64,000 nucleotides of DNA from Halorhabdus sp. CBA1104 (GCF_009690625.1 NZ_CP033878.1:868001-932000); one strand, 5' to 3'. Shown: positions 14,832 to 41,068, counted from the first letter of the stretch. Made by a program: numbers and translations. Notes: generated by a model from the letters alone, not told the origin.

Positions 14832-15473
14832 TCAGGATTCGTCGCCGTAATCGCCGCCGTACTTCATGAAGAAGTACGTACATCCAAGCACTGCCGTCAT
14901 GACGAAGCCACTAGAGACGCCGAGCAGTTTGGCACTTTCAGGGACGACTGGTCCCGTGTTGCCACCGGTCGAGACGGTCGGATAGTCTTCACCGACGACG
15001 ACGGCACCCTTCATCCCGACCGAGAGGTGGGGATCGCAGTAGTACTTGTGAATCCCGGCCTCGTCGAAGGTCCGTTCGAACGTGGTGCCGGCCTCGCCCG
15101 TCGAGGGGCCAGAGGAGTAATCGTCGTTTTCGCCGACGACGTTGTGGCCGCCGCCCTGGCCTGTCCACTCCCAGACGACGGTCGTTCCCGTGTCGACATA
15201 CATGGCCGGTGGGCCAAACGCCCAGTAATCGCCGTTGCCCTCGACGCCGACTTCCACCGTCACCTCGTCTTGCCCACGGAAGTCTTCGGTCGTCGAGAAG
15301 TTGCCCACGTCGGACAGCCAACCGCCGTAATCCGGTTTGCCGCCACCGCCGCCACCGTCTTCTTCTTGGGCGGCGGCAGTGCCGGCCGCGCCAGCGGCCG
15401 CCGTGCCGCCGGCGACCGTGCCCGCCGATCGCAGGAACGCCCGGCGAGATCGCTCGGGAGCGTCGTCGGTCAT
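14832..15473 (-). CDS. Halocyanin A (membrane-anchored blue copper protein)
   Basis: 213 residues. A Tat signal (SRRAFLRSAGTVAGG) is followed by a Gly-rich linker and a plastocyanin-like domain with type 1 copper ligands His110 (GGGHNVVGEN), Cys146, His149 and Met154 (CDPHLSVGM). A C-terminal helix (near residues 185-205) would anchor it in the membrane with the copper domain outside. It carries electrons between respiratory complexes. The copper domain is nearly identical in DNA to halocyanin B at 21885-22535, while the C-terminal anchors differ. A weak AACATATTC box lies about 30 nt upstream of the start. Confidence 0.9.
   Translation of the reverse strand: MTDDAPERSRRAFLRSAGTVAGGTAAAGAAGTAAAQEEDGGGGGGKPDYGGWLSDVGNFSTTEDFRGQDEVTVEVGVEGNGDYWAFGPPAMYVDTGTTVVWEWTGQGGGHNVVGENDDYSSGPSTGEAGTTFERTFDEAGIHKYYCDPHLSVGMKGAVVVGEDYPTVSTGGNTGPVVPESAKLLGVSSGFVMTAVLGCTYFFMKYGGDYGDES
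14989..15356. repeat. Copy 1 of 368-bp near-identical halocyanin core
   Basis: Aligns base for base, with offset 7077 and no gaps, to 22066-22433. I count five mismatches. A second short match covers the Tat-signal codons (about 15396-15434 against 22476-22515). Sequence outside these blocks diverges quickly. Confidence 0.9.
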
Positions 15474-18418: not shown

Positions 18419-18682
18419 TCACGACCGGTCGTTGTACGCTTCACGAGCTTCGTTGATCGCAGGCACGAGCACCCAGAAGGCAAGCGTCCCGAAGATCGCG
18501 AAGTAGAACATCCCCTCACCGGCAATGATGGCGATTTGGCTGAAGACGTCCGGACTTTCGGGATACGTGCCGAGTAGCTGGGGGCCTTCGAAGGCTGGTG
18601 TCTTGTACCAGCCCGCGATGACCAACCAACCCAGGCTCGCAGTCACGAAGATCGCGAACCCTTTCATGAACTCGTCAGCCAT
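18419..18682 (-). CDS. Small membrane protein of the cytochrome bc-like operon
   Basis: 87 residues starting MADEFMKGFAIFVTAS, with two helices (IFVTASLGWLVIAGWY and GMFYFAIFGTLAFWVLVPA). It is the last gene of the bc-like operon, overlapping the preceding gene by 8 nt. It may be a small accessory subunit of the complex (inference from co-transcription only). Confidence 0.72.
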   Translation of the reverse strand: MADEFMKGFAIFVTASLGWLVIAGWYKTPAFEGPQLLGTYPESPDVFSQIAIIAGEGMFYFAIFGTLAFWVLVPAINEAREAYNDRS

Positions 18683-19040
18683 CGGTCTCACCTCCGTCCG
18701 GTCCCATGCCAGCTGTGCGAAACCGCGTCGAGAACGCGTAGACGACCGCGCCAAGGACCATTACGCCGAGTCCGACGAGTGCGACCAGTGGGTCGACGGC
18801 AGCCAGATCCGCCGTCCCGCGGTTGGTCGCTGCATCGAGCGTGACGAACCCGACGACGATCGCGAGGATGGCAAACAGCGTCGAGAACACCGAGACGGCC
18901 TTGTAGACGCGAAGCGGCACGACGACGTCTCGGCGACCGGCGGTCGTGTCCTCGGGGCCGACTGTCTCGTTTTCTGTCGCGGTCTCTTCGCTCGTCGATT
19001 CCGCCGATGCGTTGGAGTGGGTTGCGTAGCTCATGATCAC
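18675..19040 (-). CDS. Membrane protein of the cytochrome bc-like operon
   Basis: 121 residues from a GTG that overlaps the upstream stop by 4 nt (GTGA); an ATG two codons later (19034) is the alternative. An acidic Ser/Thr-rich N-terminus precedes two helices (VSVFSTLFAILAIVVGFV and PLVALVGLGVMVLGAVVYA). Function unknown. Its place between cytochrome b and another small membrane protein suggests an accessory subunit. Confidence 0.72.
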   Translation of the reverse strand: MIMSYATHSNASAESTSEETATENETVGPEDTTAGRRDVVVPLRVYKAVSVFSTLFAILAIVVGFVTLDAATNRGTADLAAVDPLVALVGLGVMVLGAVVYAFSTRFRTAGMGPDGGETDG

Positions 19041-19804
19041 TTCGGTGGTCGGAGCCGGTAGTACCGGCGATTGAGTTCGAACATGTATCCCTCGCGCATC
19101 GACTTCAACACGGCGTAGGTGATGAACGCGCCGACGAACGGCAGGAGGAACGTTAGATCGAACGTGAGGTGGGAGTCGATCGGCAGGAGGTTCTTGACCG
19201 AAAGCGCCGCCAGTGTCACCGAGAGGATGACGCCAAAGACGCCGACCGACGCCCAGAAGGGCTGTTCGACCGGCCGGCGCGCACTGCCCTTGTTGAGGAA
19301 CGGGACGATCGCGATCGCCCCGACGACGACGAGATTTGCCAGCACCCCGAACGTCCGGTCTGCCATCAGCTTCTGGCCGCCGAGCAACGCGAGATCGGGG
19401 TTGAGCGGGCCGAGTTTCAGCAGGCCAAACGACCAGTAGAGATACCAGTCCGGCAGGATGATCGGCGGCGTCACCCCGGAGTTGGCCGGCGCGCCGATGT
19501 GTGGCGGGAGCGTCGCCGCCAGAAAGATGATCATCCCGACGAAGAAACTCGTCAGCGCCAGGTTGCGGATCATCTCGTGGGGCCAGGTCGGAAAGCCCAG
19601 CACGTCTCGTTCAACGTAGTCTGATTCCTGGCGCAGGTCCTGGTCTTCCCGGCGCGCTCGCTCGAAGTACTCGTAGGTCGTCCGTGCCAGACCCTGCTTG
19701 CGTGCCTTGCGCTCACTCCAGGACGGCGTCTCGTCGTCCGGTGGGACGATACCTGTCTCGCCCCCGTCGGTGCGTACCTCGGAGGTATCTGTGTTTCCTG
19801 TCAT
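19037..19804 (-). CDS. Cytochrome b C-terminal subunit (subunit IV-like)
   Basis: 255 residues. A long charged cytoplasmic N-terminus of about 78 residues precedes three or more helices matching the C-terminal domain of cytochrome b or b6f subunit IV. The quinol-oxidation motif appears as PDWY at 118-121 (PEWY in most complexes), in ILPDWYLYWSFGLLK. It pairs with the N-terminal cytochrome b encoded 3 nt upstream. Together with the Rieske protein they form a quinol oxidase of the bc1/b6f type feeding halocyanin. Confidence 0.9.
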   Translation of the reverse strand: MTGNTDTSEVRTDGGETGIVPPDDETPSWSERKARKQGLARTTYEYFERARREDQDLRQESDYVERDVLGFPTWPHEMIRNLALTSFFVGMIIFLAATLPPHIGAPANSGVTPPIILPDWYLYWSFGLLKLGPLNPDLALLGGQKLMADRTFGVLANLVVVGAIAIVPFLNKGSARRPVEQPFWASVGVFGVILSVTLAALSVKNLLPIDSHLTFDLTFLLPFVGAFITYAVLKSMREGYMFELNRRYYRLRPPK

Positions 19805-19807
19805 GGG

Positions 19808-20611
19808 TCAGTGTGGTTCGGCGATGCCTTGCATCCAGACGATCGCGATGTGGATAGCGATCAACGCCGTCACGAGGAACGGCAGGAAGAAGACGTGTAA
19901 GATGTACATCCGCTGGAGGGTCGCGGGGTTTGGCGTGAAGCCGCCGAAGATCAACTGGGCGGCCCACTCGCCGATCAGCGGGATCGAGAGAGCCATCTCG
20001 ACGCCGATCTGGCCGGCCCAGAAGGCCAGCTGATCCCACGGCAGGAGGTAGCCCGTGTATCCAAACAGGAGCGTGAGACTGATCAGGACGATTCCGATGA
20101 GCCAGTTGAGTTCCCGTGGCTCCTTGTAGGCCCCGGTGAAGTACACGCGAAGCATGTGCAAGAACACCGCAGCGACCATCACCTGGGCCGACCAGCGGTG
20201 GATACTCCGGAGCATGAACCCGAAGTTCAGGTCCGTCATGATCATCGTGATCGACTCGTAGGCGATCGTGGGGTTGCCCGAAGCGCCCGAGGCTGCAGGC
20301 GCATAGTAGAAGCCCAGTAATGCGCCCGAAATGGCCGCGACGATGTAGGCGATCGTCGAGAACGAGCCCAGCGCGTACAGCGGGTACCAGTACCAGAACT
20401 TGTTGTCCAGCCCGTACTGTTCGGTGTGGCTCTTTGGCATCTGCATGTTGACCTTGTAGTAGAGATTCTCCAGAATCTCGAGATAATCGACGATCCGGAG
20501 GCGCTTATCGAGCCACACCAGGACGGTCAGATACACCGTCTCTAAGCGCGTAAACTCCCGGTCCTCGATCCAGGCTTCGTGGTCGTGGTCGTCTTTGCGT
20601 TCGAGGCTCAT
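19808..20611 (-). CDS. Cytochrome b N-terminal subunit (b6-like)
   Basis: 267 residues with four core helices. Heme ligand histidines are His138 and His152 on helix B (RSIHRWSAQVMVAAVFLHM) and His239 and His254 on helix D. The second pair is 15 residues apart, the b6f-like rather than the mitochondrial bc1 spacing. The gene is split from the C-terminal half as in b6f complexes. It lies 4 nt after the Rieske gene. Confidence 0.93.
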   Translation of the reverse strand: MSLERKDDHDHEAWIEDREFTRLETVYLTVLVWLDKRLRIVDYLEILENLYYKVNMQMPKSHTEQYGLDNKFWYWYPLYALGSFSTIAYIVAAISGALLGFYYAPAASGASGNPTIAYESITMIMTDLNFGFMLRSIHRWSAQVMVAAVFLHMLRVYFTGAYKEPRELNWLIGIVLISLTLLFGYTGYLLPWDQLAFWAGQIGVEMALSIPLIGEWAAQLIFGGFTPNPATLQRMYILHVFFLPFLVTALIAIHIAIVWMQGIAEPH

Positions 20612-20614
20612 CGG

Positions 20615-21484
20615 TCAGTCACCCGGGCGCGGGAGCGCCGTGAATTGCTTTTTGACGGGCTGGAACGGGTCGTACACCGACTGGTGGCACTGACAGTAGA
20701 CTTCGTTTTCGGCGTTGAACCGTTCACTCCCGGGATAGGCCTTGAATCCAGGGACACAACAGAAGTGCGTACACTTGTTGAGCCAGGCCATCACGTCGTC
20801 TTCTGTGGCCGCCTCGAGGAATTGTCGGACGTCACCCGAGAGATCACTGTAATCGCCTTCTCCGTTGACCATCTTCGACACTTCCGGACTCCGGAGTACC
20901 TGGACAGGAATGGTCTGGACGTCCGCTTTCTGTGAGCGCCAACTGGCCTTGGCTGGTTTGCCAAAGCCGCCTTCACCGATGTCGTTACTCCAGGTCTCGT
21001 AATCGTCGAACTCCGAGAGCGTCAGTGCGTCGCCGGCCTCCATATCACCTTGCCAGTCGTACGTCCCCGGCACGGCCCGGAAGGCGTTGTCCGCATCGGC
21101 CCCCGGATCGATGCCCGCGTACGTCTGGACGCCGCAGTACTGGAACCACGACGAACTGTAGCTCGTCCCACCCACATCCATCTCGGCGATCGTCACGTCC
21201 TGTCCTTGGACGGTCTCGGTCCGCGTGTCCGGCCAGATACCAGCGATCGTCCCATCGTCCTGAATTTCGACCGGGACGATCGGCATCGCTCGGGGGGCTG
21301 GTCCGTCGGTGTTCGCGATACCGAAGTATTCCGTGATCCCGCCCCCGACGCCGGTCTGTGAGGTTACCAGTCCGACGGCGGTCGCACCGCCTGTCGCAAC
21401 GCTCCCGAGGGCGGCGGACCCGACGACGCCTTTCACGAACCGTCGTCGACCTGATTCGGTCGGATATTTGTCTTCGTTTGGCAT
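20615..21484 (-). CDS. Rieske iron-sulfur protein
   Basis: 289 residues. A Tat-type N-terminus (GRRRFVKGVVGSAALG) is followed by a long haloarchaeal insert (residues 50-230) and the 2Fe-2S motif C238-T-H240 ... C264-x-C266-H267. Cys243 and Cys266 are placed to form the family's stabilising disulfide. It passes electrons from quinol to the halocyanin. It is 2 nt from the gene before it and 3 nt from cytochrome b. Confidence 0.93.
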   Translation of the reverse strand: MPNEDKYPTESGRRRFVKGVVGSAALGSVATGGATAVGLVTSQTGVGGGITEYFGIANTDGPAPRAMPIVPVEIQDDGTIAGIWPDTRTETVQGQDVTIAEMDVGGTSYSSSWFQYCGVQTYAGIDPGADADNAFRAVPGTYDWQGDMEAGDALTLSEFDDYETWSNDIGEGGFGKPAKASWRSQKADVQTIPVQVLRSPEVSKMVNGEGDYSDLSGDVRQFLEAATEDDVMAWLNKCTHFCCVPGFKAYPGSERFNAENEVYCQCHQSVYDPFQPVKKQFTALPRPGD

Positions 21485-21486
21485 GG

Positions 21487-21885
21487 TTATCGTTTCATGT
21501 ACGGATAGAGTGCGCGTTTGAGGCTCTCGGTCGCCCCGTCGGTCATCGATTCGCCGTCGACGTCATCTTCGCGGATGTAGAGGTCCTCCCACTTCCGGCG
21601 TCGCTTCTTGACGATCATGACGTCCGGGAGGAACTCCTTGCGGTACAACAGCAGAATGAACGCGAGGTTGACGAACATGGCCGCCATGACCGTTCCCAGA
21701 AACATGTTCCCGAAGCCGCCGTCCAGAGAGGCGATCCCCCAGCCCTTGATCAGGCCGTAGGTGAAGACGCCCACGAAGATGATTTCGACGACCGTGAGTA
21801 ACACGATAGCGAGCGCTGCGGCCGTACTTTCCCGTGGTGGTTCGTACCGATGAATGTCGCCGTACGTGCTTCCCGAGGAGGACAT
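21487..21885 (-). CDS. Membrane protein between halocyanin B and Rieske genes
   Basis: 132 residues with two helices (AALAIVLLTVVEIIFVGVFTYGL and MFLGTVMAAMFVNLAFILLLY) and a basic cytoplasmic patch (KKRRRKWEDLY). It shares 1 nt with halocyanin B. I know of no biochemical function. Its fixed position in the operon suggests an assembly or anchoring subunit. Confidence 0.75.
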   Translation of the reverse strand: MSSSGSTYGDIHRYEPPRESTAAALAIVLLTVVEIIFVGVFTYGLIKGWGIASLDGGFGNMFLGTVMAAMFVNLAFILLLYRKEFLPDVMIVKKRRRKWEDLYIREDDVDGESMTDGATESLKRALYPYMKR

Positions 21886-22535
21886 CAGTCTGACCCTCCT
21901 TTCGAATGGGGCGTTTCGCCGTACTTGAGCAGGTAGAACGTAAACGCCAGCGACGCCGAAATCCCCAGTACCGTCGCGATGCCGACGTAGTGTGCCTGAA
22001 TGGGGACTCCCATGTGCTCGGGATTGACTGGCGTCGAAGCCCCGGCTGACACACTTGGGTAGTCATCACCGACGACGACGGCACCTTTCATCCCGACCGA
22101 GAGGTGGGGATCGCAGTAGTACTTGTGAATCCCGGCCTCGTCGAAGGTCCGTTCGAACGTGGTGCCGGCCTCGCCCGTCGAGGGGCCAGAGGAGTAATCG
22201 TCGTTTTCGCCGACGACGTTGTGGCCGCCGCCCTGGCCTGTCCACTCCCAGATGACGGTCGTTCCCGTGTCGACATACATGGCCGGTGGGCCAAACGCCC
22301 AGTAATCGCCGTTGCCCTCGACGCCGACTTCCACCGTCACCTCGTCTTGCCCACGGTAGTCTTCGGTCGCCGAGAAGTTGCCCACGTCGGACAGCCAACC
22401 GCCGTAATCCGGTTGGCCGCCACCGCCGCCACCACCGTCACCGTCCTCGGCAGCGGCGGCGGAACCTGCTGCGCCGGCGGCCGCCGTGCCGCCGGCGACC
22501 GTGCCCGCCGATCGCAGAAATTCCCGCCTGTGCAT
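21885..22535 (-). CDS. Halocyanin B, first gene of the bc-like operon
   Basis: 216 residues from the ATG at 22535 (an ATG at 22544 is also in frame). The 22535 start is preferred because the TTTATA box at 22562-22567 predicts transcription start near 22538. It has a Tat signal HRREFLRSAGTVAGG, Gly-rich linker, plastocyanin-like domain with GGGHNVVGEN and CDPHLSVGM ligands, and a C-terminal helix. Likely electron acceptor of the complex encoded downstream. The core is almost identical in DNA to halocyanin A, with a different C-terminal anchor. Confidence 0.9.
   Translation of the reverse strand: MHRREFLRSAGTVAGGTAAAGAAGSAAAAEDGDGGGGGGGQPDYGGWLSDVGNFSATEDYRGQDEVTVEVGVEGNGDYWAFGPPAMYVDTGTTVIWEWTGQGGGHNVVGENDDYSSGPSTGEAGTTFERTFDEAGIHKYYCDPHLSVGMKGAVVVGDDYPSVSAGASTPVNPEHMGVPIQAHYVGIATVLGISASLAFTFYLLKYGETPHSKGGSD
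22066..22433. repeat. Copy 2 of 368-bp near-identical halocyanin core
   Basis: Partner of 14989-15356. Same orientation, 7,077 bp apart, five mismatches by eye, including one-base changes at codons that alter Val/Ile, Tyr/Phe, Ala/Thr and Gln/Lys. Confidence 0.9.
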
Positions 22536-33187: not shown

Positions 33188-34117
33188 TCAGGCGTCGAAG
33201 TCGCCAGTCACCACGTCGACGAATTTCTCGGGATGCTCGACGTGGGGGAGGAGTTTCGCGTCCTCGAAGACGACGAGGCGTGCGTCCGCCCGGTCGGCGA
33301 GTTCCCGTCCAGCCTCGACCGGGGTCGTGTCGGTGTCTCGTCCCCACACGAGGGTGATCGGCACGTCGAGAGACGCGAGGTGCTCGCCGAGTTCCTCGTC
33401 GGGGTCGAGATACCCCCCGAGAAAAGAGGCAGGGGCATAGCGACTGCCCGGCTGGTGGGCACTCCGCCACTCGTAAGCCAGCGTCTCGTCCGTGAGATTG
33501 GCCATGTCCGCATAGCCGTGGTCGTCGTGGAAGTGTCGCAAGCTCGGCTTGCTGGCCAGCAGATTGAACAGGCCGGTACCGACGACCGGCGATCGCAACA
33601 GCGCCCGCACCAAGGGCCGCCGTCCGTCGCCCATCGTCTCGTCGGTCGGGCTGATCAACACCAGCGACTCGACTGCTGTGTCGTTCGATCCGGCGGCCGC
33701 GTACGCACCCGAAAGCGACGACGCGACGACTATCGGTTCGTCGACGAGATCGTCGATCACGTCACCGAGGAACGTCTCGTAGAGCGACGCCGAGTACAGT
33801 AGTGGCGGGCGATCCGAGCGACCGAATCCAGGGAGGTCGGGCGCAACGACGTGATAATCTTTCGAGAGGGCTTCGATCACGTCGACGAACTCGCGACTGG
33901 AGGAAGCGGCCGAAACACCGTGTACCGCCAGGAGGTCCGGATCGTCCGGGTCACCGGCTTCCGTGTACGCGACCTCGAAGCCGCGCCAGTGGTACGTCCC
34001 GGAGACGCCCGGGAACGGCGCTTCGAGTTCGCCCGCTTCGCGACTGAGTAGTCGGTTGATCCCCGTTGCCACACCGGCGGTCCCGATGGCAGCCCCCAGG
34101 GCCGTTCGAAGCTTCAT
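33188..34117 (-). CDS. Alpha/beta hydrolase
   Basis: 309 residues. It has a short hydrophobic N-terminus, the [11 protein letters not shown] oxyanion loop, a nucleophile elbow ASSLSGAYA (Ser134), an acid in [10 protein letters not shown] and a histidine in [11 protein letters not shown]. Its layout matches haloalkane-dehalogenase or epoxide-hydrolase-like esterases; the substrate is unknown. A GCTTATAGG box is centred 27 nt upstream of the ATG at 34117. Confidence 0.88.
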
Positions 34118-34975: not shown

Positions 34976-35714
34976 CTGTCTCACCGCCCGCGCTTGCGCG
35001 AACGCCGACCAGTCCGTCCCTCTCGAGGATCGCGTCGAAGGCCCCTTCCAGAGAGTCCGTGTCGGCTTGCTCGCGTAAGTGTGCCGGACTACCCCGGGCG
35101 ACGATCGAACCGCCGTCGAGGACGAGAATCTCGTCGGCAATACGCTCGGCCGCAGCCAGGTCGTGTGTCGCCAGGAGGACTGCCGTGCCATCCCCAGCGA
35201 TGTCGACAATCACATCCGCGATGTGATGGCGGAGTTGTGGGTCGAGTCCGCTCGCGGGTTCGTCGAGCGTCAGGAGTGGGGGCTCCCCGATCGTCGCCTG
35301 GGCGAGGCCGAGCAGGCGAACCATCCCGCCCGAGAGGGCCGGGATGTGGCGGTCCGCGACGGCCGTCAATCCGACGCGATCCAGAACTGCCGGGACATCG
35401 ACAGCCCCCGAGACGAGTGTCCCGTAGAATTCGATCGTCTCGGCGACACTGAACTGTGGGCGAAAGGCCGGTCGCTGGGGCACGTATCCGACTGTCCGGG
35501 CGGCGGCCTGTCTACGGGAAACTGACCCGGAATCTGGATCGCGGAGTCCCGTGGCGATCGACAACAGCGTCGTCTTCCCCGACCCATTTGGCCCGAGCAA
35601 GGCGACGACCGAGCCACGTTCGACCGTGACTGAAACGTCCTCGAGGACCGATACGTCGCCGTAGGCGTGTGTGATGTCGCGTACTTCGAGTGCTGAGGTG
35701 TGATCTTCGCTCAT
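34968..35714 (-). CDS. nosF: ABC transporter ATPase, NosF-like
   Basis: 248 residues. Walker A GPNGSGKTT at 41-49, Q loop YVPQRPAF, signature LSGGM at 127-131, Walker B LLTLDEPASGLDP with the catalytic glutamate at 152, and H-loop ATHDL. It overlaps nosD and nosY by 4 and 8 nt, so the three are coupled. Confidence 0.92.
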   Translation of the reverse strand: MSEDHTSALEVRDITHAYGDVSVLEDVSVTVERGSVVALLGPNGSGKTTLLSIATGLRDPDSGSVSRRQAAARTVGYVPQRPAFRPQFSVAETIEFYGTLVSGAVDVPAVLDRVGLTAVADRHIPALSGGMVRLLGLAQATIGEPPLLTLDEPASGLDPQLRHHIADVIVDIAGDGTAVLLATHDLAAAERIADEILVLDGGSIVARGSPAHLREQADTDSLEGAFDAILERDGLVGVRASAGGETDD

Positions 35715-37609
35715 GGGTGTCCCGCTCGTGTGGTCGTTGCATTTCGGGCGGCCGTCAGTTCCTCGTGTCGAACCGGCTGGCTGCGTGGCGCGTCGTCGAC
35801 GACGTTGGCACTTCGCAGTCCGCGGACCGACGCCTGGAATTGCTGGAGGACGGCCACGGCCGGCGAGCGGGCAAGTGTCCCGCTACCGTCGCTCGTTCCG
35901 ACGGCTCGATCGACGACCCCACTCGGGCGGAAGGGGCGTGCGATCGTCCCGTCACTGTCACGATCCCGGCCCGGGATCGGCCCCCAGTAGTTCCCCGACC
36001 AGAGTCGCACCGGTCCGCGCCCCGTCGAGACGTAGCGGTCGTTGTCGACAATATCGTTTGCCGTGACGTGGTTCGTCGGCACGATCGTCCCGGTCCGTAA
36101 TCCGGCCTCGTTGCCGAGGAGGACGTTCCGTGCGTACACCGATCGCTGGGTACCCAGATCCAGTCCGTACTGATTGTCGAGAAGGACGTTCCCGGTGGTC
36201 AGCGACGCACTCCCCGACATCGAGACGCCGACACCGCTGTCGGTAACGCGATTGTCGAGGACGGCATTCGAACGGGGCCGGGTCATCACGACGATACCGA
36301 TGTTCGTCTCGCTGACGGTATTGTTGGCAACGAGCGACCGTGATGTGAACATCTCGTGGACGCCAAAACGCATCCCAGTCATTCGGTTGTCTCGTACGAC
36401 GATTCCGTCTGCGTGGTGAGTGTACACAGCGTCACGCCCGCCCTGGAACGTGCTGTTTTGCACGACCATCCGGGACTCGATCGCGAGCACGCTCATGAAT
36501 CCCTCGCGCCACGTCTGGCTCCCCTCGATTGAGACGTTTCCCACGACGACCCCGTCGCTGTCACGGGCGATGATGCCGTTTGCAGGCGTCTCGATGACGA
36601 CTCCAGCAACCAGCGAGCGGTTGGCTGCATCGAGACCGACAGCAGCGTCACCGTAGCCGTACGTGTTCCGGATCGTCTCGTCCCAGGAGCCGTTTGCCCC
36701 TGCATCGGGCGGTGAGCCGGTGTTGTCGCTCCCACCACCCGTGATCGAGAGGTCCAGCAGGGCCGTTCGCGGAGACCGCACGCGTAGGACAGTCCCGTTT
36801 CCGTCCCCGACGATGCGTGTCTCAGCCCCCGAACCACGAATCGTCAGAGGCTTGTCGATCGTTAGGTTCGCCCGATACGTCCCGGACGGCAGTCGAACGG
36901 TCGTGTTCGGTGGCGCTGCCTCGATGGCGTCCGACAGCGTCGGAGCGTCCTCGCCGACGACGATCGACGTCCGCCGATCGAGCAAGTCACCACGATCATC
37001 GACCGTCCGACTTGCCCACTCTCGTCGGTCTGTTACCTGGTTTTCGACGGCGACTGCTGGCTCGGTATCGTCTCGGCTCCGAAGGTCCGTCCACTGGCGA
37101 ATCTCGCCGCCGTATTCGGTAGCGAACGATCGAGCAGCCACGCGGTTGCCAAACGGAACGATCGCCGGGCCGGCCGGCGTCCGGGCCGCGCTATCGACGA
37201 CAAAGTACGCTGTCGAGGCCCTCGACCAGTCTACTGCCGGATCAGAGGCGACAGTCAGATACCCCGCCTCGGTCACAGACGGGCCGGCGTCAGCGAAATC
37301 CGTCACGAACACGCCCACGGGGCGGCCAAACTGTCGCGTCGTACGATCGGCCGTGACTTCGCTGACTGCCGACTGTACTCCATAGTAGCCACGGACGTAC
37401 TGATATTCCGAAAAGAAGACTTCGACGCGGGGGACCTCGTAGCCGGCGTCTTCGGCTTGCCGGACGTCGACCCCCGTCAGGCCGGTGGTGAGGGTCTCGG
37501 AGAACGCGACTGGCTCGACCGTGACGCCCGATGCGGGGTGGACGGCAAAGGCCAAGCTCCCGCCGGCAAGAACCACCGCCAGGCCCGCAAGGACGACGAC
37601 GACGCGCAT
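35711..37609 (-). CDS. nosD: NosD-like beta-helix protein with N-terminal NosL-like domain
   Basis: 632 residues. A signal or anchor helix (1-24) is followed by about 120 residues (near 60-178) that resemble the adjacent NosL (FVVDSAARTP...VPFGNRVAARSFATEYGG against FVVDSRVEGA...GFGTDEAARAFQDEYGG) but lack the CxxCGM copper motif. Residues 215-580 are a right-handed parallel beta-helix (NosD/CASH repeats, with many NxxxSxxGI-like turns). It lies outside the membrane and probably scaffolds copper delivery. It starts 1 nt upstream of the nosL stop side, in one operon. Confidence 0.85.
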   Translation of the reverse strand: MRVVVVLAGLAVVLAGGSLAFAVHPASGVTVEPVAFSETLTTGLTGVDVRQAEDAGYEVPRVEVFFSEYQYVRGYYGVQSAVSEVTADRTTRQFGRPVGVFVTDFADAGPSVTEAGYLTVASDPAVDWSRASTAYFVVDSAARTPAGPAIVPFGNRVAARSFATEYGGEIRQWTDLRSRDDTEPAVAVENQVTDRREWASRTVDDRGDLLDRRTSIVVGEDAPTLSDAIEAAPPNTTVRLPSGTYRANLTIDKPLTIRGSGAETRIVGDGNGTVLRVRSPRTALLDLSITGGGSDNTGSPPDAGANGSWDETIRNTYGYGDAAVGLDAANRSLVAGVVIETPANGIIARDSDGVVVGNVSIEGSQTWREGFMSVLAIESRMVVQNSTFQGGRDAVYTHHADGIVVRDNRMTGMRFGVHEMFTSRSLVANNTVSETNIGIVVMTRPRSNAVLDNRVTDSGVGVSMSGSASLTTGNVLLDNQYGLDLGTQRSVYARNVLLGNEAGLRTGTIVPTNHVTANDIVDNDRYVSTGRGPVRLWSGNYWGPIPGRDRDSDGTIARPFRPSGVVDRAVGTSDGSGTLARSPAVAVLQQFQASVRGLRSANVVDDAPRSQPVRHEELTAARNATTTRAGHP

Positions 37610-37610
37610 C

Positions 37611-38276
37611 TCAACGTTGGGCCAGTCCCGCGATCATCGACCGTGTCACGTCGTCGAACGTCGCCAATGACCCGCCGTACTCGTCTTGGAAGGCCCTGGC
37701 AGCCTCGTCCGTGCCGAATCCGATCAGATCACGGCCCATCGCGCCCTCGACGCGAGAATCGACGACGAACGTGACGTCCTCGGCCAGTGTGAATGCCGCC
37801 GCTTCCGGGTGTGTCGAAATGAGTGTCCGCTCGCCCTCGCTGAATATCTCGTAGTCGACGGCGGCGTAATCGGTGACGTAGAAGGCCGCCCGCGTCCAGC
37901 CCCGATCGAGTCGCTGGAAGTCGTACTCGAAGGCCTCCCAGGTACTATCGAAGCGGGCCGGATTCTCGTGTCCGGACGGATCTTTGTTCCGGTAGAATAC
38001 CTCGGCGCTTGGACCTGGATGGTGCGGAATCACCATCCCACAGACGTCACACGCGTCCCCGTCAGTCAGCGCGACCGGAGCGGGCGTCTCCGCGCTCAAA
38101 CAGCCGGCAAGTCCCATTGCTGTCCCCGCGCCTGCGAGTTTGACTACGCGCCGCCGCGTCAGCGACGAGTGTTGCGTGCCTGTCTGTGGCCCATTCGCAG
38201 GTGAGCGAACGGACGCCTGGTGGACGTCAGCGACTAGATCCTGCCCCCATTCGATCACAGACTCGCCTTTTCTCAT
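37611..38276 (-). CDS. nosL: NosL-like copper-binding lipoprotein
   Basis: 221 residues from the ATG at 38276. A Tat motif (TRRRVVKLAGAG) runs into lipobox GLAGC with Cys59, so it is a Tat lipoprotein. The Cu(I) site is CDVCGM at 76-81. The end TFVVDSRVEGAMGRDLIGFG is the usual NosL core. The 40 residues before the Tat motif are unusually long, so a later start is possible. The minus-strand CCTCTTTA box is centred about 28 nt upstream of this ATG. Confidence 0.88.
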   Translation of the reverse strand: MRKGESVIEWGQDLVADVHQASVRSPANGPQTGTQHSSLTRRRVVKLAGAGTAMGLAGCLSAETPAPVALTDGDACDVCGMVIPHHPGPSAEVFYRNKDPSGHENPARFDSTWEAFEYDFQRLDRGWTRAAFYVTDYAAVDYEIFSEGERTLISTHPEAAAFTLAEDVTFVVDSRVEGAMGRDLIGFGTDEAARAFQDEYGGSLATFDDVTRSMIAGLAQR

Positions 38277-38300
38277 TGTCGATAGCTTCGCAGCCAGCAC

Positions 38301-38434
38301 TAAAGAGGCAGTGATTCGACTATCGAACATTGCCCAACCGAGAGGCCTTCGCGATGGTGGAGACACGGATCGAATGGGCGTCCCAACCAGTAGAGAATCG
38401 TGCAAGACACGCCCAATAGCGAACGGTTTAATGC
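38301..38434. promoter_or_regulatory. Divergent promoters of nosL operon and sco1 operon
   Basis: TAAAGAGG at 38301-38308 (minus strand CCTCTTTA) is 28 nt from the nosL ATG. GGTTTAATGC at 38425-38434 is 27 nt from the sco1 GTG at 38456, which makes that GTG start convincing. The 116 nt between them could hold shared regulatory sites; I see no clear palindrome. Confidence 0.5.
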
Positions 38435-38455
38435 GCTGGGCTGTGAGACGAAATC

Positions 38456-39121
38456 GTGCATCGACGCGCGTATCTGGGCTCGCTTTCCGGCGGGGTCGCT
38501 GCGCTGACGGCGGGGTGTCTCGGTACCAGCGGCACTGCGGAGACGTATCTCGCCGAACCGGATCGTGAGTACGACTCGTCTGCCGTTCAATATCCCGCGT
38601 ACGGCCAGCAACTGCCCGAGGCCACCATTGCGGATCCGATTGCTGGCGAGGCGATCGAGACGACGGGCGGTAACGGCGATCAGTTGCTAACGTTCTTTTA
38701 CAGCCACTGTCAGACGGTCTGTCCGCGGCTCATTTCGGCACTCCGGGGCGTCCAAGCGAAAGCCATCGAAACGGGAATGGTCGACAACGTACGCTTCCGG
38801 GCAGTCACGTTCGATCCGGATCGTGACGACGCCGAACGGCTCCGCCAATACGCCAAGCGCATGGACGTGTCGTTGTCCGAAAACTGGCGGTTCCTCCGGC
38901 CGGACACGCCGGACGACGCCAAATCCATCGTCGAAGACACCTTCGGCGTCGGCTTCGAGCGGACCCATCCCGAAGACATGGCCCAGTACATGTTCACGCA
39001 CTTCGCGTTGATCCTGTTGGTCAACGCCGACGATTACGTCGAGCGAGCCTATACCGGGAAAGCCCCACAGTGGCAACCGATCTACGAGGACCTCCAGACC
39101 CTTCGCAACCGGGAGGGGTGA
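38456..39121 (+). CDS. SCO1/SenC copper chaperone lipoprotein
   Basis: 221 residues, GTG start. Lipobox LTAGC (Cys21), thioredoxin-like fold with the copper motif CQTVC (Cys85, Cys89) and the third ligand His182 in FTHFALIL, all as in Sco proteins. It delivers copper to, or maintains thiols of, the CuA site of cytochrome oxidase. First gene of an apparent four-gene run with tlpA, ccdA and a DUF420 protein. Confidence 0.9.
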   Translation: MHRRAYLGSLSGGVAALTAGCLGTSGTAETYLAEPDREYDSSAVQYPAYGQQLPEATIADPIAGEAIETTGGNGDQLLTFFYSHCQTVCPRLISALRGVQAKAIETGMVDNVRFRAVTFDPDRDDAERLRQYAKRMDVSLSENWRFLRPDTPDDAKSIVEDTFGVGFERTHPEDMAQYMFTHFALILLVNADDYVERAYTGKAPQWQPIYEDLQTLRNREG

Positions 39122-39633
39122 CCGTGCGACGCCGAGACTTGCTTGCCGGAGTTGGCGGGGCAGCGGTCGTCGCTACCGGCGGCTACGTTGCTCTCTCGGG
39201 GACCAGTGGAGACGTCGATCCAGTTGCCGTCGATCTGTTCGAGACCGCCGCCAGCCCAGGCGGGACGATGCAGGTTCCGACTCCCGGCGAGGTGACCGTT
39301 CTGGACCTCTTTGCGACGACCTGCCCACCCTGTGTCCCAGCGCTCGACGCGCTGAGCGATGCCCAGGGTGACGCCAGTGAGGTCCAGTTCGTCTCGGTCA
39401 CCAGTGAGTATCTCGGCGGCGGCCGGACGCGTGCAGACGTCATCGACTGGTGGGCCGACCACGGCGGACCCTGGCCAGTCGGGTACGACGAACAAGGTCG
39501 TCTCATGCAACAGCTCGATGTCGGCTCGCTGCCCCACACCGTCGTGATCGACTCCGGAGGGAACGCCGCATGGTCACATACCGGTGTCCCGGACGCGAAC
39601 CGCGTTCGCGAGGCGATCGAGCAGGTTCGCTGA
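39118..39633 (+). CDS. TlpA/ResA-like thioredoxin
   Basis: 171 residues from a GTG overlapping the sco1 stop by 4 nt (GTGA). A Tat-type N-terminus (VRRRDLLAGVGGAAVVATGG) is followed by a thioredoxin fold with CPPC (Cys69, Cys72) and cis-proline LPHTVVID. It is an extracytoplasmic thiol-disulfide reductase, fed by the CcdA encoded next, likely keeping Sco or CuA cysteines reduced. Confidence 0.88.
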   Translation: MTVRRRDLLAGVGGAAVVATGGYVALSGTSGDVDPVAVDLFETAASPGGTMQVPTPGEVTVLDLFATTCPPCVPALDALSDAQGDASEVQFVSVTSEYLGGGRTRADVIDWWADHGGPWPVGYDEQGRLMQQLDVGSLPHTVVIDSGGNAAWSHTGVPDANRVREAIEQVR

Positions 39634-40304
39634 TGAGCACGATCGCGTTGGGGGCCACGGTCTCGTTCGCGTTCGGGGCCGGCATCACGACGTTCTTTGC
39701 ACCGTGTGCGTACCCACTCTTGCCGGGATACGTCGGCTATTACTTGCGTGAGCGCCCGGCCGAGGCGAAATCACCAGTTACCGGCGCGCTCTTGGGTGGG
39801 GTCGCTGCGAGTGTCGGAATCGTTGCGACGTTCGCTGTGCTTGGCGCATTGACGGCGACAATCGGCCAGACGTTGACCCAGTACGTCTCGACGCTGGAGG
39901 TGGGTGTCGGACTCACGTTGGTCGTCCTCGGCGTCATCACGCTCGCCGAGTGGTCGCCCGGCTGGCGAGTCAGGCTCCCACAACGGCGGGCGACGATCAC
40001 TGGCTTCGCTGCTTTCGGTGGGCTGTACGCCATCGCCGCGACCGGCTGTCTCGCCCCGGTTTTCCTGGGGCTCGTCTCCCAGGCGCTAACGTTCTCCGTG
40101 CCCGGGACGATCGCCGTACTCGGTGCCTATGCAACCGGGATGGCCGTCATGATGATTGCAGCGACAGTCGCTATCGCCGTCGGCGTCGATGCTGGGCGCG
40201 CTCGCCTGCCGGGTGTTGCTGAACGGGCAAGCCAACTCGCTGGTGTCGTGCTCGTGATCGCCGGGGGTGCCCAGATTGTCCTCGCGGTGTTCGTGTATAG
40301 TTGA
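39633..40304 (+). CDS. ccdA: CcdA/DsbD-like electron carrier
   Basis: 223 residues with six helices. Two membrane cysteines, Cys25 in FFAPCAYPLLPGY and Cys139 in AATGCLAPV, are the thiol pair that moves electrons across the membrane. The TGATG overlap with tlpA couples the two. It supplies reducing power from the cytoplasm to the TlpA and Sco proteins. Confidence 0.9.
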   Translation: MSTIALGATVSFAFGAGITTFFAPCAYPLLPGYVGYYLRERPAEAKSPVTGALLGGVAASVGIVATFAVLGALTATIGQTLTQYVSTLEVGVGLTLVVLGVITLAEWSPGWRVRLPQRRATITGFAAFGGLYAIAATGCLAPVFLGLVSQALTFSVPGTIAVLGAYATGMAVMMIAATVAIAVGVDAGRARLPGVAERASQLAGVVLVIAGGAQIVLAVFVYS

Positions 40305-40408
40305 TCGCCCGCTACCGAGTGGGACGGTGCCCCGAAACACAGGGACGGACTGTCGAATCGTCGGCCCGAGGGCCAACGCACATACTTCCGGCACTCGATG
40401 GGCCAACT

Positions 40409-41068
40409 ATGCGTATGAGTTCTCGTCTCAGACAGTTGGGTCGTGAGCGCCCTGTTGCCATCACCGCTGTCGTTTCGGCGATCGGGTACGCGCTCGTTGC
40501 TGGGGCCTTTACCGGTATGATCCCGCTGTTTCCGGCGCTTGGTCGTGACACTGTGTTGCTGTTTGGCCACCTCATCGCGGCCGTCAACACGGCGGCCCTC
40601 GGTGCGATCCTGCTCGGGGTGCGGTACATCAAACGCGACGAAGTCGAAAAACACCGCGCGGCGATGCTCGTGGCCTTTGCCCTGATATTGGTCTTTCTCG
40701 TCCTGTACCTCTGGAAAGTCGGTGGCGGCTTCGAGAAGTCGATTACCGCGAGTGGCTTACCCAAGATTGCCTACCTCCTGATGCTCGCCGTTCACATCCT
40801 CCTGTCCGTCGTCGCCGTGCCAGTGGTCCTCTATGCGGTCGTCCTCGGACTGTCACATACGCCTGCCGAACTCCGTGACACCCACCACGCTCGCGTCGGT
40901 CGGATCGCCGTCGCCACCTGGTCGGTGAGTCTGGCGCTTGGCGTCATCACGTACGTCCTGCTCAATCACGTCTATGGGTGGGAACCACGACATGCAACCG
41001 TTCTCGCGTTAGTAGGGGTTCGGCCGGCCGTCGATCGGATCGTGTCGGCACTCGATCCGACCGCGTGA
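40409..41068 (+). CDS. DUF420 membrane protein
   Basis: 219 residues with five helices. HLIAAVNTAALGAILLGVRYIKRDEVEKHR and LMLAVHILLSVVAVPVVLYA with THHARVGRIAVATW match DUF420, a family found near cytochrome oxidase assembly genes; the histidines suggest heme or copper handling. It lies 104 nt downstream of ccdA in the same direction. Confidence 0.82.
   Translation: MRMSSRLRQLGRERPVAITAVVSAIGYALVAGAFTGMIPLFPALGRDTVLLFGHLIAAVNTAALGAILLGVRYIKRDEVEKHRAAMLVAFALILVFLVLYLWKVGGGFEKSITASGLPKIAYLLMLAVHILLSVVAVPVVLYAVVLGLSHTPAELRDTHHARVGRIAVATWSVSLALGVITYVLLNHVYGWEPRHATVLALVGVRPAVDRIVSALDPTA

Follow-up and report, generated by a model that had tools for sequence, protein, structure and literature searches.

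What does a set of nitrous oxide (N2O) reductase maturation genes do where no N2O reductase gene accompanies it? The question is raised by a 64,000-nucleotide stretch of the haloarchaeon Halorhabdus sp. CBA1104 (hereafter the window; C1:868001-932000 of a single contig of 2,628,395 bases, about 99.99% complete), in which genes for NosL, a NosL-NosD fusion that we call NosLD, NosF and NosY lie opposite genes for the copper chaperone Sco, a TlpA-like thiol reductase, a CcdA-like electron carrier and a DUF420 protein of the CtaM family. The first-pass annotation had proposed that copper loading and thiol control are combined here in one system serving a cuproenzyme other than, or in addition to, NosZ. 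The core of that idea is supported, with co-occurrence and gene neighborhood pointing to a CuA oxidase as the client; the halocyanin client that it also offered gains no specific support beyond a few halocyanin-type genes, and the copper nitrite reductase NirK, which it did not consider, has to be weighed. Judged from sequence, the locus probably encodes an extracytoplasmic copper relay in which a NosDFYL-like ABC machine acts with Sco, TlpA, CcdA and CtaM to mature CuA-type heme-copper oxidases, and a survey of 194 Halobacteriales genomes, part of a larger order, suggests that the module loads copper into oxygen-reducing enzymes.

Association with CuA oxidases

Searching the whole genome for CuA oxidase subunits, as the first-pass annotation had advised, revealed two CuA oxidases, which are the candidate clients in this organism. 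One is of the ba3 type (COX2 and COX1, C1:1263347-1265551), and the CuA site of its COX2 is intact (CNEYCGGGHHTM); the other is of the aa3 type, with its COX2 near C1:1625000 and an intact CuA motif (CAEFCGAGHSGM). In the region around the ba3 genes (L037, G000:C1:1255000-1272000), a halocyanin-type gene precedes the oxidase genes, and in the other direction from them lie genes for a P-type copper ATPase-like protein and for a membrane protein resembling TauE/SafE, homologues of which are again found close to NosLD in other genomes.

The evidence on the client is comparative throughout. Presence and absence calls were compiled by hand from search tables, neighbors were called with a simple gene finder that was ineffective on the low-GC genome G006, and distances between genes were measured from start coordinates. 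Full-length fused NosLD occurs in 111 of the 194 genomes, 73 of which lack NosZ, and a ba3-type COX1 was found in 113; both are present in 94 genomes, NosLD only in 17, ba3 only in 19 and neither in 64. The odds ratio (OR) for this association is 18.6 (p=1.9e-18), and it is 12 (p=5e-4, seven informative genera) when the test is stratified by genus to limit the effect of shared ancestry. The stratified OR of NosLD with NirK is 1.6 (p=0.57). For Sco, the stratified OR is 25 with ba3 (p=8e-5) and 1.4 with NirK (p=0.97).

Physical linkage points the same way. At least 29 of 87 genomes, representing 16 genera, have NosLD no more than 10 kb from Sco, against an expectation of 0.9; for ba3 COX1 the same holds in 7 genomes from 6 genera, against 0.77 (expected counts were calculated from the copy numbers for a genome of 3.5 Mb). 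Sco-CcdA pairs, judged by coordinates, adjoin the cox genes of ba3 oxidases in G118 and G004 and those of aa3-type oxidases in G015, G031, G061 and G125.

In bacteria the usual CuA chaperone is PCuAC, a partner in the Sco route. None of the 194 haloarchaea yielded PCuAC in a search that did detect it in three bacterial controls, one of them a Thermus. The window locus thus resembles the bacterial Sco/PCuAC/TlpA route in having a Sco with CxxxC and His, a CPPC TlpA-like protein, CcdA and a CtaM-family protein, and differs from it in the absence of PCuAC and in the NosDFYL-like ABC machine alongside the Sco set. Since some bacterial oxidase routes work without PCuAC, its absence lowers only the identity with the Sco/PCuAC route.

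The NosL-NosD fusion and the absence of NosZ

The lack of nosZ noted earlier for the 64-kb window extends to the whole contig. Searches of the entire genome with TIGR04244 and TIGR04246 returned no NosZ, only short cupredoxin-domain matches in oxidase subunits and the nirK gene; a nosZ on the same replicon, named beforehand as the finding that would overturn the proposal, was therefore sought and not found. True NosZ is present in 51 of the 194 genomes, with scores of 690-755 bits against TIGR04244.

What had been read as a simple NosD is a fusion, which the first-pass annotation overlooked. The 632-residue NosLD (35711-37609, minus strand) carries an N-terminal degenerate NosL domain (residues 76-177; PF05573, 44.2 bits) followed by a right-handed beta-helix (PF05048, 75.6 bits). 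Both domains are present in all 36 relatives scanned, and one member of the family is already labelled 'nitrous oxide reductase accessory protein NosL/NosD' in public annotation. The NosL-like domain spans only positions 39-127 of the PF05573 profile, with the CxM-bearing part missing, and NosLD contains no cysteine, as is also true of 55 of 107 relatives. Because the CxM motif is the likely Cu(I) site of NosL (PMC6530538), a fused domain without it probably acts as a docking platform within the protein, which positions partners instead of carrying copper.

A separate NosL, a putative copper lipoprotein, is encoded immediately upstream (37611-38276, minus strand; PF05573, 132.9 bits), with an RRR signal peptide, a lipobox and a CDVCGM (CxM) motif, and it matches Pseudomonas stutzeri NosL (7osf_H) in phmmer with E=7.6e-10. 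In the NosL proteins of L076, L088, L089, L122, L126 and L136, HGM or GGM replaces CGM at the CxM position, so that the likely Cu(I) cysteine is lost.

The predicted model of NosLD has a mean predicted local distance difference test (pLDDT) score of 76.6, with most of the beta-helix above 90. It superimposes on P. stutzeri NosD from the NosDFY and NosDFYL complexes (7o0y_A and 7osf_A) with Z scores of 38.6 and 38.4 over 364 residues, the next families scoring 32. The structure search listed no NosL chains for the N-terminal domain, which is uninformative either way because the matches listed were taken up by the beta-helix. The stretch GVHxM, present in P. stutzeri NosD, is retained, and H418 and M420 are nearly invariant. 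The window system and P. stutzeri NosDFYL (7o0y, 7osf) thus share the NosD beta-helix, the NosF ATPase, the NosY permease, a CxM lipoprotein NosL and GVHxM, whereas the window system has no NosZ client, a CxM-less NosL-like fusion, only 21-22% identity, and Sco and oxidase genes nearby.

Apart from one bacterial contig from a metagenome-assembled genome, possibly misbinned, which turned up in a genome-contig scan, NosLD was found in haloarchaea only. Repeated duplication has occurred in a number of genera, with tandem NosLD-NosF-NosY sets in L053, L089, L100 and L114, and lone copies without NosF and NosY occur in L092, L098, L102 and L103.

The NosD proteins linked to NosZ in haloarchaea are of a different kind. 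All six nosZ clusters that we read (L230-L235) encode their own unfused NosD of 459-484 residues with NosF and NosY. These clusters share with the window locus the gene order NosD-NosF-NosY, sometimes with NosL, and come from the same archaeal order; in contrast to it, their NosD is unfused and nearer the bacterial form, NosZ lies upstream, often with a halocyanin gene, and Sco, TlpA, CcdA and DUF420 are not among their genes. In each of the six, nosZ and nosD are separated by a further gene of about 230-310 codons (L230:10302-11054, L231:9891-10589, L232:7455-8174, L233:10349-11149, L234:10149-10856 and L235:9935-10861). NosLD is 28-30% identical to the NosZ-linked proteins, over the helix only; it scores 60 bits against P. 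stutzeri NosD, compared with 213 bits for a NosZ-linked haloarchaeal NosD, and 196.5 bits against TIGR04247, under the cut-off of 300. By these sequence measures NosLD and the unfused NosZ-linked NosD form separate families.

These comparisons bear on the idea that the module is what remains of a lost NosZ system, or that it serves a NosZ encoded on a plasmid outside the assembly. Such an origin would account for the homology of NosL, NosD, NosF and NosY to N2O reductase maturation proteins, and the genome sequence searched is a single contig, which leaves room for a plasmid. The distinctness of the NosLD family argues against a leftover, however, as do the five NosZ-free genomes of the genus, which keep all the genes open and in order. 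Nor do NosLD and NosZ track each other within genera (stratified OR 0.5, p=0.56), and the two loci are separate where a genome has both. We consider a relict largely refuted and this explanation as a whole very improbable; a remnant or hidden nosZ in the genome itself was ruled out by the two NosZ models and the distinct NosD family.

Clade A and the alternative clients

In a midpoint-rooted tree, 109 NosLD proteins fall into clade A, which includes the window protein, and clade B; some genomes whose NosLD copy was not in the tree were assigned to a clade by genus. In clade B, ba3 is present in 68 of 70 genomes. Against an oxidase client weigh several observations. In 19 genomes ba3 is present but NosLD is not; 9 of them have NosZ, and there the NosZ-type NosDFY, which is probably present, might stand in. 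The genus-stratified test has only seven informative genera. Among genomes without clade B, the association of clade A with ba3 is weaker (OR 5.4, stratified p=0.04), and clade A is also associated with NirK (OR 10.2, p=2e-7; stratified p=0.48). Three of the five genomes of the window's genus (three of the four relatives) lack ba3 yet keep the locus. Finally, G006 has NosLD and NosL but no COX1, COX2, NosZ or NirK.

The weaker ba3 link of clade A and its co-occurrence with nirK make NirK the main rival client, which the relay might load in clade A alone or besides oxidases. The organism has its own nirK gene (C1:1814363-1815286), NirK occurs in 13 of the 15 clade-A genomes without ba3, and in a joint model for clade A the coefficient of NirK (2.1; genus bootstrap 1.3-3.9) is larger than that of ba3 (1.4; 0.06-3.0). 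There is also a precedent in Parageobacillus thermoglucosidasius, where a locus with NosL, NosD and an ABC pair but without NosZ is proposed to serve a different copper client, namely NirK (PMC13068155); that locus is bacterial, and the passage describing it mentions no fusion. On the other hand, the association gives no signal within genera, Sco and DUF420 are oxidase factors, and no nirK was recognized beside NosLD in the neighborhoods read, where neighbors without a homologue in the window were not all identified. NirK is also missing from one genome that keeps the full locus, G094. On balance we find a NirK client unlikely.

The window's genus narrows the choice further. Its five genomes have ba3 in two cases, NirK in four and NosZ in none, whereas an aa3-type COX2 whose CuA motif is intact occurs in all of them. 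G094, which lacks NosZ, ba3 and NirK, retains the full eight-gene locus and a CuA-bearing aa3-type COX2; among the enzymes tested, the aa3-type CuA oxidase is therefore the sole client common to the genus. Service to the ba3 oxidase alone was ruled out for the window module by the three genomes that keep the locus without ba3.

A second alternative is that the copper goes to halocyanins or a different blue-copper carrier, or that the relay distributes it generally to exported cuproproteins. It would explain G006, in which intact NosLD (C1:1894143-1895972) and NosL (C1:1898129-1898557) genes lie in a low-GC (46%) region (L236) and a halocyanin-like gene is found about 4 kb from NosL. A halocyanin-type gene adjoins NosY in G158, and two more lie elsewhere in the window (14832-15473 and 21885-22535). 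Beyond these genes nothing specific was found for the halocyanin client of the first-pass annotation, and in particular nothing specific for halocyanin as the only client. Halocyanin-type genes also occur in nosZ clusters and beside the organism's own ba3 genes, and so are not specific to the module. Moreover, blue-copper sites are usually loaded without an ABC machine. We thus rate this alternative as improbable, below NirK. The two window genes are on the minus strand, the second of them within a cytochrome b-type (bc1-like) cluster at 18419-22535; this cluster and the halocyanin-type proteins are likely electron-transfer partners of oxidases.

Locus layout and a proposed copper relay

Family matches and motifs bear out all eight gene identities assigned earlier, with CcdA below its Pfam cut-off. 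The module span of 35711-41068 given by the first-pass annotation was too short, as it omits NosF and NosY, both of which lie outside it. On the minus strand the order is NosL (38276-37611), NosLD (37609-35711), NosF (35714-34968) and NosY (34975-34163), and adjacent genes overlap or are separated by only a few bases. NosF is a 248-residue NosF-type ABC ATPase (PF00005, 97.5 bits) whose gene overlaps that of NosLD by 4 nt, and NosY is a 270-residue NosY-type ABC-2 permease (PF12679, 38.5 bits) whose gene overlaps nosF by 8 nt, an order kept in relatives. An alpha/beta hydrolase gene (33188-34117, minus strand) follows NosY in the genus, and several further genomes of the family have a homologue close to the module.

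The plus strand carries, in the opposite direction, Sco, TlpA, CcdA and DUF420. Sco (38456-39121; PF02630, 61.1 bits) is of the Tat/lipoprotein type, has a CQTVC motif and a conserved His that sits in TH, and matches Sco1 relatives in the PDB with E=1.3e-7. The TlpA/ResA-like thiol reductase (39118-39633; PF08534, 42.3 bits) has a CPPC motif. The CcdA-like membrane electron carrier (39633-40304) scores 21.9 bits against PF02683 (DsbD_TM), under the cut-off of 27.1; both of its cysteines (Cys 25 and Cys 139) are membrane-embedded, and CcdA remains a neighbor of Sco in many genomes. The DUF420 (CtaM family) membrane protein (40415-41068; PF04238, 108.2 bits) may have a longer start at 40301.

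Between the two sets lies a divergent intergenic region (38277-38455), whose reported length of 179 nt agrees with predicted starts of NosL at 38276 and Sco at 38456. A BRE/TATA-like element, CGAACGGTTTAATG, precedes Sco, with TTTAAT at 38427-38432, and the BRE/TATA-like GNGAACGGTTTARTGC, about 27 nt before the Sco start, is kept in all five genomes of the genus; on the minus strand, TTTAG (38304-38300) precedes NosL. A scan for sigma-70 promoters and terminators, which is unsuited to archaea, found none. The conservation of the divergent pair in strains lacking nosZ, which had been put forward for checking, is complete in the genus: the eight-gene layout is common to all five genomes, each of them NosZ-free. 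Because it is kept even in relatives whose NosD is only 63-65% identical, the layout reflects more than chance.

How might such a relay work? As summarized in one account, NosL passes copper to NosD in complex with NosFY, and from there to NosZ (PMC13068155). When copper is limiting, loss of NosL leaves both the CuA and the CuZ site of N2O reductase empty (PMC6530538), which indicates that NosL is able to feed a CuA site. Heme-copper oxidases require CtaM (DUF420), for which a role in exporting copper towards Sco has been proposed (PMC4958251, PMC13344008). We suggest that DUF420/CtaM would help copper leave the cytosol, after which it would be held by NosL and Sco. The lipoprotein NosL would bind Cu(I) through its CxM motif and dock on the fused NosLD, and ATP hydrolysis by NosF, transmitted through NosY, would drive hand-over of copper by NosLD to Sco or straight to COX2. 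TlpA, re-reduced by CcdA, would maintain the cysteines of CuA and Sco as thiols. In other words, the relay would fill the role of the bacterial PCuAC that is absent from the surveyed haloarchaea. Gene content, the fusion with its missing CxM, the absence of nosZ and PCuAC, co-occurrence and gene neighborhood are observed; we infer each of these transfers and the exact client.

Orphan nos maturation genes have been recorded in haloarchaea before: nosFY without nosZ is noted for Haloferax volcanii (PMC9240420, citing Zumft and Kroneck 2006), in a passage that names neither a client nor a fusion and reports no genome-wide association. In the open-access literature we found no paper tying NosLD or NosDFY to oxidases. 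Thus, orphan nosDFY genes were known, but the oxidase link of the fused family appears to be new.

A broader possibility, which we advance only tentatively, is that across Halobacteria a NosDFY-type machine carrying the NosL-NosD fusion has been redirected from N2O reductase to respiratory CuA oxidases, replacing PCuAC. If true, cytochrome oxidases would have a route of copper insertion driven by ATP; to our knowledge, no such route has been described in any organism. Orphan nosDFYL genes are usually annotated as N2O reductase accessory genes, so that surveys of N2O reduction can miscount the genomes that carry them. Should the module serve oxidases, both its retention without nosZ in many haloarchaea and the filling of CuA without PCuAC would be accounted for, and NosDFY would be a copper insertase whose client can be switched.

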